Shown one piece after another: positions 57,060 through 62,264 of a stretch of DNA of 64,000 nucleotides (its first letter is position 1; every line of letters starts with the position of its first letter). Location: contig JAFRSW010000004.1 in the NCBI GenBank assembly GCA_017427385.1, positions 1 through 64,000 of the forward strand. The letters are read 5' to 3'. The stretch comes from Bacteroidales bacterium (lineage in GTDB: Bacteria; Bacteroidota; Bacteroidia; Bacteroidales; UBA932). Under the pieces are notes generated by a model. It worked only from the letters and a program-made list of their open reading frames with translations, did no database searches and was not told the DNA's origin. The position numbers and the translations under genes are program-made.

Positions 57060-57145
57060 CGGCGAGCAGCTAATAGGTTACTGGATAGCAAATCCCTTAT
57101 CTCCGGGCATTTTGAGGACAACCCCGCCAGCGGCCGGCCGATAAC

Positions 57146-57290
57146 GACCCGTAGATCTTTTCCGCAATTATCTCTACGGGTAGGTCGAAAAATGGCTGAC
57201 CCGTAGAGGTTTTGCCGGATTACCTCTACGGGTAGGGGTAAAAAAGGCTTACCTGTAGAGAAAAAACGGGTTTTTCTAAACGGGTAAACG
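57146..57290 (+). repeat. REP-like array 3: three units, period 52 bp
   Basis: Units begin GACCCGTAGATC at 57146, GACCCGTAGAGG at 57198 and TACCTGTAGAGA at 57250. Stem partners CTCTACGGGT are perfect in the first two; the third is degenerate, as in array 2. Spacers read AGGTCGAAAAATGGCT and AGGGGTAAAAAAGGCT. Orientation equals array 2. Confidence 0.85.
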
Positions 57291-60317: not shown

Positions 60318-60361
60318 ATTCCTGTTTATCGGTCTCCCGGTTCTTCAGCAGAGGAGAAAAC

Positions 60362-60377
60362 GTGACCAAATACGACC
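60362..60377 (+). repeat. GTGACC-type boxes downstream of the esterase gene
   Basis: GTGACC at 60362 and the variant ACGACC at 60372, 10 nt apart, match the boxes at 59478-59523 that precede the gene. Confidence 0.5.
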
Positions 60378-60440
60378 AAATTTGGGGGATAAAAACAAGA
60401 CTTTGTAAAGTGTCTGGAAATCAACAACTTATAAAGTCTA

Positions 60441-60456
60441 TTTGTGCCTCGGGCGG
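60441..60456 (+). repeat. 16-bp direct repeat within the tRNA-Leu 3' end (attR-like)
   Basis: TTTGTGCCTCGGGCGG, identical to 59356-59371; positions 60445-60456 are tRNA sequence. Confidence 0.65.
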
Positions 60457-60755
60457 GAATCGAACCCGCACGGCCTTTTCGGGCCAAGGGATTTTCGTAC
60501 CACTATGGCTTTCGCCACCGGGGGCAAATGCCTGCCCGTTCGTAGTCTGGACTATTCCTTCACCATGGAGCCAGGCTCTTTAGGCGTGCCGTGTCTAGTC
60601 TCTGCACCTTCATCCTTTTGGAGGCTTGGCTCAAGATTGCCTTCAGCACTACCCGTTAAGGTTTCCTTGAATTTACGGCATTCTACATCTCTCTTTTCAG
60701 AGAGTGCACTCAAATGTGTCTAAGTCCCTCGTGTCTACCATTCCACCACCAAGGC
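60445..60755 (-). tRNA. tRNA-Leu(UAA) split by a group I intron
   Basis: The 5' exon is 60755-60722 (34 nt) and the 3' exon 60495-60445 (51 nt). Joined, they give an 85-nt class II tRNA: acceptor GCCTTGG with CCGAGGC (one G-U pair), anticodon stem AGGGA/TCCCT with loop CTTAAAA (anticodon TAA), a long variable arm (TGGCCC...GGCCGT) and T arm GCGGG-TTCGATT-CCCGC, discriminator A. The intron lies between U34 and A35. Without removing the intron no tRNA can form. Confidence 0.93.
60496..60721 (-). ncRNA. Group I intron (IC3-like) of tRNA-Leu(UAA), 226 nt, no ORF
   Basis: The 5' splice site follows a U (exon ends ACTT, which pairs with GAGT at 60711-60708 with a U-G pair at the site), and the intron ends in G (60496). 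P2 is CTCTCT-GAAA-AGAGAG (60704-60689). Conserved core stretches are GGCAATCTTGAGCCAAGCC, read on the minus strand from 60641, and GTGCAGAGACTAGAC (60607-60593); GACTA there pairs with TAGTC (60554-60550) to form P7. GGCGAAAGCC (60516-60507) is a tetraloop hairpin near the 3' end. These match what I know of the cyanobacterial tRNA-Leu(UAA) intron. No homing endonuclease is encoded. Confidence 0.93.
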
Positions 60756-60767
60756 TTATTGCGGCTG

Positions 60768-60775
60768 CAAATATA
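60768..60775 (-). promoter_or_regulatory. -7 box of the tRNA-Leu gene
   Basis: Minus-strand TATATTTG (CAAATATA on the plus strand), 12 nt before the tRNA 5' end at 60755. No clear TTG at -33. Confidence 0.6.
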
Positions 60776-60871
60776 GCAATTAATCTGTTAATCTTGCAGG
60801 GACGGTCATTCTTGTATCAGATTTGTCAACATCCTGTTGTGGCCAAATTGTTGATATTCAGAAACTTATGC

Positions 60872-60903
60872 AAAAGCGTCTGGTGAAAATGTACCAGACG
60901 CTT
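60872..60903 (-). terminator. Probable terminator after rodA
   Basis: Perfect 11-bp stem AAGCGTCTGGT / ACCAGACGCTT around 8 nt; on the minus strand it is followed by TTTT. The T-run is short. Confidence 0.55.
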
Positions 60904-60971
60904 CCGTGCAACATTTTGAAAATCAGCACATTGGCCGCAACGCGCCACATCCTGCCCCGCCAAACAAAAGC

Positions 60972-62264
60972 CTAAAAATACTTATTCTCCTGCCGATACA
61001 GGGCAATGAAGATAAACAGCATCACGGTGAACGCCCATAGCGACGATCCGCCGTAACTCAAAAACGGCAGCGGGATGCCGATCACAGGCATAATGCCAAT
61101 CGTCATGCCCACATTTATAAACAAATGCATGAACAGGCACGCCGCCACGCAATATCCGTAAATCCGCGTAAAGCCCTCCCGGGAGCGTTCCGCGTCATGC
61201 AGAATCCGTGTAATCAAGAAGCCATACAGCGTCAGCACCACCAGGCATCCTAGGAAGCCCCATTCCTCGCCGACCGTACAGAAAATGAAGTCCGTACTCT
61301 GCTCCGGCACGAAGCCGCCGGTATTCTGCGTACCGTTCGTAAAACCCTTGCCGGCAAAGCCGCCGGAACCTATAGCAATCATCGACTGCCTCACATTGTA
61401 TCCCACCCCGTGCGGATCATCCTTCATGCCCAGCAGCACCTCGATGCGCAGCCGCTGATGGTCCTGCAGCACCTTGTGGAACACGAAATCGGTAGAGAAC
61501 ACCAGCCCGGCGAAAACAACCACCGCCAACAGCAGCATCCGCAGCGAGAAACGCCTCTCCCGCGACAGCGTCCGCGTCTGCCGAAGCAGATACCATAGGT
61601 ACAGCAGCCCTATTACTCCCAGCACGATCAGCGACACCCACACAGAGGTCTTCAAAGTCAGGATAAACAGCACAACCGCCAGCCCCAGCAGCACCAGTAT
61701 CACCCCCGGCAGCCCCTCGCGGTACAACACGAACAGCATCCCCGTATACACCAGCGCGGAGCCGGTTTCATTCTCCGCAAGGATAATCAGCATCGGCAGG
61801 CCGAGCACCGCCGCCACCAGCCAGAAATCCTTCCACAGTCCGAGCGAGAAGTTCTGCCGGCTCATCAGCATGGCCAGCAGCAGTGAGGTCGTAATCTTCG
61901 ATATCTCGGCGGGCTGGAAGCTGATGGGCCCGATGGAAAACCATGAGTGCGAACCTTTGTGCGCGGACCCCAGGAAGATCACCGCCACCAGCAGCACCAC
62001 CACGATCAGATAGCCCGGAGTGGCCAGCACCTCCCAGAGCCGCGGGTTCACCACGAACAGGATCACGATAGCCAGCGCGAATGCCGTCAGGATCCACACG
62101 AACTGCTTGCCGCTGCGCAGCGAAAATGCCAGCGGCGAGCCCATGTCGGGGGTATGGATGGAGGCATATACGTTCAGCCAGCCTATCAGGACCAGCACCA
62201 GGTAGATGGCAACGAGCGTCCAATCCACCGAACTGCGAAAACCTCTGTCAGTTCCCTGCAACAT
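60972..62264 (-). CDS. rodA: Rod shape-determining SEDS glycosyltransferase RodA
   Basis: The 430-residue protein has about ten membrane helices and the SEDS family motifs NETGSALVYTGMLFVL, GGFAGKGFTNGTQ and the terminal MTIGIMPVIGIPLPFLSYGGSS. RodA polymerises the glycan of side-wall peptidoglycan with PBP2. It overlaps the mrdA gene by 17 nt. FtsW is the other candidate; the neighbour PBP2 decides for RodA. Confidence 0.95.
   Translation of the reverse strand: MLQGTDRGFRSSVDWTLVAIYLVLVLIGWLNVYASIHTPDMGSPLAFSLRSGKQFVWILTAFALAIVILFVVNPRLWEVLATPGYLIVVVLLVAVIFLGSAHKGSHSWFSIGPISFQPAEISKITTSLLLAMLMSRQNFSLGLWKDFWLVAAVLGLPMLIILAENETGSALVYTGMLFVLYREGLPGVILVLLGLAVVLFILTLKTSVWVSLIVLGVIGLLYLWYLLRQTRTLSRERRFSLRMLLLAVVVFAGLVFSTDFVFHKVLQDHQRLRIEVLLGMKDDPHGVGYNVRQSMIAIGSGGFAGKGFTNGTQNTGGFVPEQSTDFIFCTVGEEWGFLGCLVVLTLYGFLITRILHDAERSREGFTRIYGYCVAACLFMHLFINVGMTIGIMPVIGIPLPFLSYGGSSLWAFTVMLFIFIALYRQENKYF

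Follow-up and report, generated by a model that had tools for sequence, protein, structure and literature searches.

The intron of tRNA-Leu(UAA), which in cyanobacteria and plastids (e.g. Anabaena) is inserted between U34 and A35, is the textbook example of an old, immobile and vertically kept bacterial intron. In the 64,000 nucleotides analysed here (the window) a tRNA-Leu(UAA) gene is split at the very same place. An earlier note on this DNA had taken the insert for a stably and vertically maintained element, while leaving room for its having moved into the lineage. Is the intron a relic that has descended with its host, or does it belong to a mobile lineage? We consider it about 85% probable that it is a self-splicing intron of a homing lineage and that the window copy represents a late stage, in which the endonuclease has been deleted and the ribozyme kept.

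The split tRNA-Leu(UAA) gene and its intron

The elements of the locus are collected in Table 1. ARAGORN calls no tRNA in the unspliced window gene and a tRNA-Leu(taa) when its exons are joined. The same is true for the genus as a whole: the joined exons of all 34 genes measured (the window gene among them) gave tRNA-Leu(taa), the unspliced genes in 0 of 34 cases any tRNA. The last base of the intron is G, and CCA is not encoded at the end of the 3' exon. Thus the tRNA with anticodon TAA and the 226-nt insert between U34 and A35 are as the earlier note had described them, intronless alleles agreeing with the boundaries obtained by rebuilding the exons. Its assignment of the host to the Bacteroidales also holds, since the genus is Candidatus Cryptobacteroides, placed in this order by NCBI.

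Table 1. Elements of the tRNA-Leu(UAA) locus (window coordinates)
Feature	Position	Strand	Basis or remark
tRNA-Leu(UAA) gene, class II, split by group I intron	60755-60445	-	exon rebuild and cmscan
5' exon, acceptor 5' strand through U34, 34 nt	60722..60755	-	
Group I intron, 226 nt	60496..60721	-	RF00028 E 1.4e-10; boundaries from exon rebuild and intronless alleles in genus
3' exon, A35 to discriminator A, long variable arm, T arm, 51 nt	60445..60495	-	
Internal guide sequence TTTGAGT	60708..60714	-	read from sequence; intron positions 9-16 invariant in 39/39 minimal introns
P2 hairpin	60685..60707	-	4/6 upper pairs vary on both sides, 66 introns
P3 5' strand	60675..60680	-	partner 60587-60592; both sides vary in 2/6 pairs
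P4 5' strand	60666..60671	-	alignment of 66 introns
P5 hairpin	60640..60661	-	third pair poorly kept, 29/66
P4 3' strand	60630..60635	-	alignment of 66 introns
P6 hairpin	60606..60625	-	alignment of 66 introns
P7 5' strand GACTA, G-binding site	60596..60600	-	invariant in 66, partly by construction
P3 3' strand	60587..60592	-	alignment of 66 introns
P8 hairpin	60561..60586	-	alignment of 66 introns
P7 3' strand TAGTC	60550..60554	-	invariant in 66, partly by construction
P9 hairpin, GAAA loop	60505..60518	-	both sides vary in 3/5 pairs
Terminal G (omega G)	60496	-	read from sequence
rodA, upstream neighbour; locus marker in G085, G045, G099	60972..62264	-	NCBIfam RodA; synteny

A cmscan of positions 60350-60850 matched the Rfam group I model RF00028 over its full length (model 1-253) at 60731-60535 on the minus strand, with 45.8 bits and an E value of 1.4e-10. 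The default scan of the whole window was silent on the intron because this score lies below the Rfam gathering score of 50. The gathering cut is an annotation threshold and no biological trait; it is exceeded by 16 of the 36 matches in our genus survey, that of the window remaining below. Across all contigs of the own genome the tRNA-Leu intron is the one RF00028 match, and the RNA fold has a z-score of -2.6. With 35 of the 101 genomes surveyed in the genus sharing the element, the intron is far beyond chance, and we regard a tRNA-Leu(UAA) gene split by a group I intron as confirmed for the window.

The group I assignment of the earlier note is supported by a readable core as well, including the pairing from P3 to P8: P1 with a U.G at the splice site, the P3/P7 pseudoknot, P4, P6, P8, P9 and the terminal G. 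In P1 the exon ACUU faces GAGU of the guide with U34.G at the cut, and a P10 between UUU of the guide and AAA of the 3' exon is possible. With its anticodon-loop site, its 226 nt and a short P5 lacking P5abc the intron has the traits of the tRNA introns of subgroup IC3, to which it presumably belongs. Pairing was followed in a structural MAFFT alignment of 66 of the 67 introns collected below, with the inserts of the longer ones removed and the counts uncorrected for relatedness; the intron of L264 is missing from it, as from the dN/dS set, owing to a misplaced anchor. Changes on both sides with pairing kept occur in P2, P3, P8, P9 and the P9 extension. All P3 pairs (UGCCGU/ACGGCA) are retained in 66/66 introns. 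P7 (GACUA/UAGUC) and 5/6 pairs of P4 (UUCAAG/CUUGAG) are invariant, the outer P4 pair is retained in 64/66, and P6 varies on one side only. Part of this conservation is built into the data: the P7 motif served to find or cut out introns, so that its invariance is partly by construction, and the terminal G was demanded by the extraction pattern in the introns other than that of the window, which makes its presence in 66/66 non-independent. All 39 minimal introns share the guide stretch TTGAGTGC unchanged; for the longer ones TTGAG served as alignment anchor, and guide conservation there is by construction.

Judged from these sequence elements, self-splicing of the window intron is well supported. 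The exon ACUU of the precursor would pair with the guide sequence, a guanosine bound at P7 would cut after U34, and the freed U34 would then attack after the terminal G, so that U34 is joined to A35 and tRNA-Leu(UAA) restored.

The leucine tRNAs of the host bear on the need for this reaction. The other four isoacceptors (CAG, GAG, CAA and UAG) are intact in the own genome. No intronless UAA anticodon arm was found there with up to one mismatch, and the assembly, which is 77.75% complete, apparently has no UAA-leucine tRNA gene besides the split one. Twelve ORFs of the window contain 655 leucine codons, 14 of them UUA. Since the only UAA-leucine tRNA found in the assembly is the split one and UUA codons are used, splicing is very probably required, as the earlier note had argued from the essential nature of the tRNA; the second intact gene that it had named as possible counter-evidence did not turn up in this assembly. 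Fourteen intron-bearing genomes are at least 95% complete. Eleven of these are without an intronless copy, and G047, G074 and G082 have one. The second tRNA-Leu(UAA) gene of G074, with an encoded CCA end and a proteobacterial look, is probably a contaminant.

The incomplete assembly and the Rfam score under the gathering cut might raise the suspicion of an assembly artefact, a contaminant or a dead, unspliced tRNA gene. This is hardly credible in view of the same site next to rodA in relatives, the recurrence of the intron within the genus, the missing intronless copy and the UUA codons in use.

Alleles of the genus and the history of the host

The genus survey comprised 101 genomes, one per species and the own genome included, many of the assemblies being incomplete. 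RF00028 matches occurred in 36 of them and lay in tRNA-Leu in 35; G088 was dropped, its match lying outside tRNA-Leu. In G015 the contig ends and the 3' exon is absent, hence the 34 genes measured. An intronless arm was present in 39 of the 101, both alleles were found in 3 and neither in 30. Intronless, minimal, remnant and HNH-carrying alleles all came to light in the survey of related tRNA-Leu(UAA) genes that the earlier note had proposed. At L065 (1087-1367), G088 carries a group I intron of another kind (RF00028 38 bits, E 6e-7), which adjoins an HNH-like ORF, apparently within a protein gene.

For the 46 genomes with a single known state, the alleles require at least 13 state changes on an rpoB tree (bootstrap 12-14). 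Shuffled labels gave a mean of 15.4 to 15.5, and 66 to 71 of 500 shuffles needed no more changes than observed; in other words, there are hardly fewer changes on the host tree than under shuffled labels. The closest relatives illustrate this patchwork. G085, the nearest by rpoB among the 46 (sister support 100/99, rpoB protein 99.4% identical), is intronless, the next relative, G045, carries a 725-nt HNH intron, and G099, which follows, is again intronless. The tRNA-Leu gene adjoins rodA in all three and in the own genome. The rodA-PBP2 stretch, 86% identical in G085 and 81% in G045, follows the order of the hosts, so that the allele difference is local to the tRNA. Two repeats were noted in the vicinity. 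A short hairpin repeat (AGCGTCTGG..CCAGACGCT) next to the tRNA, at about 60864-60930 of the window, has more copies in G085 and G045. Hairpin-like units of about 140 bp (ACCCGTAGAG..CTCTACGGGT) at 57145-57286 match 21 places in G085 at 71-82% identity, with none listed in G045, and represent a dispersed repeat.

Does the intron share the history of its host at all? Intron and rpoB distances correlated with r 0.13 in 24 genomes, and 340 of 2000 permutations were as high. Five of the 24 genomes are without a whole rpsB and were omitted from the control. In the remaining 19 the intron-rpoB correlation was 0.15 (894 of 5000 permutations as high) against 0.79 for rpsB and rpoB at the DNA level and 0.71 at the protein level (0 of 5000 permutations each). 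Because subsamples of 200 nt of rpsB still reach 0.49-0.70, the absent correlation is more than a short-length effect. The closest cores differ from that of the window by about 9%, a single parent copy was not found among them, and support inside the family is low in the intron tree. Stable, vertical maintenance is contradicted by the four allele states, by their many changes on the host tree and by the decoupling from host divergence, and the other possibility considered by the earlier note, that the intron moved into this lineage, gains support.

Movement might also be due to ordinary recombination of tRNA loci, or to elements that integrate at the 3' end of tRNA genes, with the HNH gene as a passenger. 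Horizontal intron transfer together with recombination of the whole tRNA-Leu locus was reportedly described in 2002 by Rudi et al., to go by their title, and the window and G085 have the same 5' exon and a different 3' exon and downstream flank (window 60443-60495 versus L322). This difference is a possible trace of co-conversion or of integration at the tRNA 3' end; as proof of co-conversion the 3' exon was dropped, the shared 3' exon type being common among intronless alleles too. We nevertheless consider spread by recombination alone unlikely, as the change is local to the tRNA next to a rodA-PBP2 stretch that follows the host, and the HNH frames described below are largely free of indels and, in the few pairs with unsaturated dS, appear constrained.

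The HNH endonuclease and the viral relatives of the intron

The 67 distinct intron sequences (34 from the genus survey, 33 from named loci) fall into three size classes: 39 minimal introns of 210-234 nt, 8 remnants of 245-451 nt and 20 long introns of 607-752 nt. In all 20 long introns the P1 loop contains an HNH motif in frame, and 4 of the 8 intermediate ones still show a piece of it. The window intron, one of the minimal ones, has the core frame only and lacks the HNH motif. Identical ribozyme cores can differ in the state of the endonuclease, as in L245 (731 nt) and L267 (214 nt) or in G005 (725 nt) and L249 (429 nt). The earlier note had taken the missing endonuclease as a sign of stability; this reading fails with 20 HNH-armed introns and 8 remnants among the relatives.

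The HNH protein of L021 matched Pfam HNH_3 weakly (E 1.2e-5) and the HNH endonuclease phrog_10822 with an E value of 3e-45. An uninterrupted HNH stretch of exactly 123 codons, without indels, is present in 16 of the 20 long introns; left outside the codon comparison were G012, G018 and L239, in which the front part of HNH is absent, and L264. Synonymous divergence was saturated in 115 of 120 pairs, and the remaining 5 had a median dN/dS of 0.07. The 55 open codons that run through the window core in the HNH frame of the relatives, up to the stop in P7', were rejected as evidence of a fossil because this frame is open to the P7' stop in 18/39 minimal as well as 11/20 HNH-length introns. The introns of L058 (in G019) and L197 contain another, non-HNH insert in the P1 loop.

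The explanation for these alleles probably lies in homing. The HNH endonuclease in the P1 loop of many relatives would be predicted to cleave or nick tRNA-Leu(UAA) genes lacking the intron, and repair of the cut genes from an intron-bearing copy would spread the intron. The window copy would then stand late in such a cycle, with the endonuclease lost and the ribozyme retained. Invasion, decay of the endonuclease, loss and re-invasion are the stages summarised in a paper on the homing cycle (PMC1995217), and the endonuclease states together with the patchy alleles are what the cycle in that outline leaves behind.

Relatives of the intron were also found in viral contigs. A general intron pattern occurred in at least 120 stretches of IMG/VR, of which 80 loci were taken. 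Of 88 viral loci, 79 yielded a core, followed in 66 of the 79 by AAAATC as in tRNA-Leu(UAA); the rest are in different genes. Group I introns in viral tRNA-Leu-like genes (L074, L078, L084 and others) appear to be common in this database. A pattern taken from the window core recovered six viral contigs, L372-L377, each near tRNA genes (1 to 28 per stretch); a search of this kind may miss equally near introns elsewhere. The insert splits a tRNA-Leu-like gene in L372 (by eye), L373 and L375, and ARAGORN called tRNA-Leu(taa) from the joined flanks in two of the three, L373 and L375, and not in L372. The exons of L377 are less clear. In L372, L373 and L375 the HNH frame starts in the P1 loop, crosses the ribozyme core and stops at P7'; the window copy has no HNH. 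The frame overlies the core throughout L372-L377 and continues into a zinc-finger/HTH-like part in P8, the same bases serving as predicted catalytic RNA and as protein code.

A tree of 45 cores places four of the six viral introns in one group with those of Cryptobacteroides (99/99), the bacterial introns forming an inner clade (84/91), and the HNH proteins of L372, L374 and the bacterial one scanned belong to the same PHROG, phrog_10822. The nearest introns found so far outside the family are thus HNH-bearing tRNA-Leu introns of tRNA-rich viral contigs. The viral status of these contigs is taken from IMG/VR. Seven of nine ORFs of two contigs matched PHROGs (the two HNH proteins included, and for example a DNA methyltransferase); no structural phage gene was found among the nine. 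A tblastn search of named phages with the HNH protein matched 207 of 50,697 records, the top-ranked at 51% identity over 72% of the query, and 18 named-phage records were 60-80% identical over their best part. Tentatively, the likeliest reservoir or vehicle would be phages rich in tRNA genes whose own tRNA-Leu(UAA) contains this HNH intron. The viral contigs bear on a review of 2014 which states that all phage introns observed by then were in protein-coding genes despite the many phage tRNA genes (PMC3984707). A preprint of 2025 describes huge gut phages with numerous group I introns, and tRNA goes unmentioned in its main text (PMC12363816).

The tRNA-Leu(UAA) site in other bacteria

Searches with exact patterns found the intron in 20 of 249 genomes and 4 of 25 genera of the family; their sensitivity was 4/5 known carriers, G067 being missed. 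The own genome was the only match among 393 genomes in a sample of the order and among 395 in a sample of the phylum. The restriction to one genus that the order sample had suggested was overturned by the family sample. Both exons were recognised in 7 of 8 loci read in one sister genus, one of them with an HNH-like insert.

This distribution bears on the view that the intron is ancient, having descended vertically from an ancestor shared with cyanobacteria and been lost in many relatives. A scan of named genomes for the AGACTAG type gave at least 119 stretches, of which 80 loci were read, and the same tRNA-Leu(UAA) site proved to be occupied in Bacteroidales, Rhizobiales, Rhodocyclales/Burkholderiales, Planctomycetota and Candidatus Soleaferrea. 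A site common to these alpha- and beta-proteobacterial, planctomycete and Bacteroidales introns, to one of Bacillota and to the cyanobacterial/plastid intron would suit an ancient origin, as would the single branch formed by 81 Bacteroidales rows in the first core tree. Against it stand the exact-pattern searches (one of five known carriers missed within the family), which detected the intron neither among 387 Bacteroidales sampled from other families nor among 394 further Bacteroidota. HNH alleles and remnants occur often, and descent of this kind is already contradicted by an intron divergence that does not track the host as rpsB does. We therefore regard an ancient, vertically inherited intron as very unlikely and a homing lineage as the better explanation.

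The proteobacterial, planctomycete and Ca. Soleaferrea introns (loci among L192-L271) share the gene and the splice site with the window. They are 203-284 nt in size, a long insert being absent among those measured. In the first core tree, which does not include the planctomycete introns, those of alpha- and beta-proteobacteria fall on branches of their own. At its gathering cut Rfam confirmed 3 of 13 further loci (L075, L195 and L255); the other 10, including L021 and the viral HNH introns, fall under it. Among 72,556 plasmid records 1264 matched the window gene; in 21 of the best 30 of these the match covers query 113-266 (the P6-P9 part) at about 70% identity. Their hosts are Enterobacteriaceae, Acinetobacter and Aeromonas. 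One plasmid match, L445 (1415-1607), is an unannotated group I intron-like element (RF00028 32 bits, E 2.7e-5).

How close is the window intron to that of cyanobacteria? The likeness seen by the earlier note holds as far as the gene and the site are concerned, and extends to small size, terminal G and overall core. A specific tie does not follow: the closest introns found are viral, P7 has an A-U pair in the window intron versus C-G in Anabaena, and a grouping of Cryptobacteroides with cyanobacteria, the latter represented by one sequence, was not rejected (AU p 0.41). Cyanobacterial reference patterns had no match in the viral contigs. The Azoarcus pre-tRNA-Ile intron has the same tRNA-type core and AGACTAG/ATAGTCC P7 as the window intron; it differs in residing in another tRNA and in forming a separate branch of the 45-core tree.

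Introns in tRNA-Leu(UAA) outside the cyanobacteria are already published. Two hosts are Ca. Thiomargarita nelsonii and BOGUAY, which we take to be a Beggiatoa, and in 2002 Vepritskiy reportedly described a tRNA-Leu(UAA) intron in another gammaproteobacterium. The putative group I introns of these first two hosts lie in the same tRNA, tRNA-Leu-TAA, outside the cyanobacteria (PMC4853749); they differ from ours in coming from Gammaproteobacteria, and their type and structure are left unsettled in that paper. The paper on tRNAscan-SE 2.0 names bacterial group I introns in tRNA-fMet and tRNA-Ile2 (PMC8450103). Among the literature matches listed, which mostly exclude subscription papers, we recognised nothing on this intron in Bacteroidota and no homing endonuclease in a tRNA-Leu intron. 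Those matches, in the text accessible, likewise showed no patchy HNH cycle for the cyanobacterial/plastid intron. A full homing cycle at the tRNA-Leu(UAA) site within one bacterial family is apparently new.

A more far-reaching possibility, which we regard as speculative and rather doubtful, is that the anticodon site of tRNA-Leu(UAA) is a recurrent homing target in tRNA-rich phages and several phyla, that phages re-seed bacteria, and that the cyanobacterial/plastid intron is a long-domesticated survivor of such phage-borne introns. If so, that 'ancient' intron would be no proof of great age by vertical descent.

For Candidatus Cryptobacteroides and its relatives the evolutionary reading of the intron changes from a stable relic to a mobile lineage. 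Within a single family of gut bacteria, known through assemblies, the intron behaves like a selfish element of which all stages are visible, from the empty site and the HNH-armed intron to the half-deleted endonuclease and the bare ribozyme, and in 11 of the 14 well-assembled carriers the gene that houses it is the only one for UAA-leucine tRNA found. The gain-and-loss cycle of homing introns thus becomes testable in natural populations.
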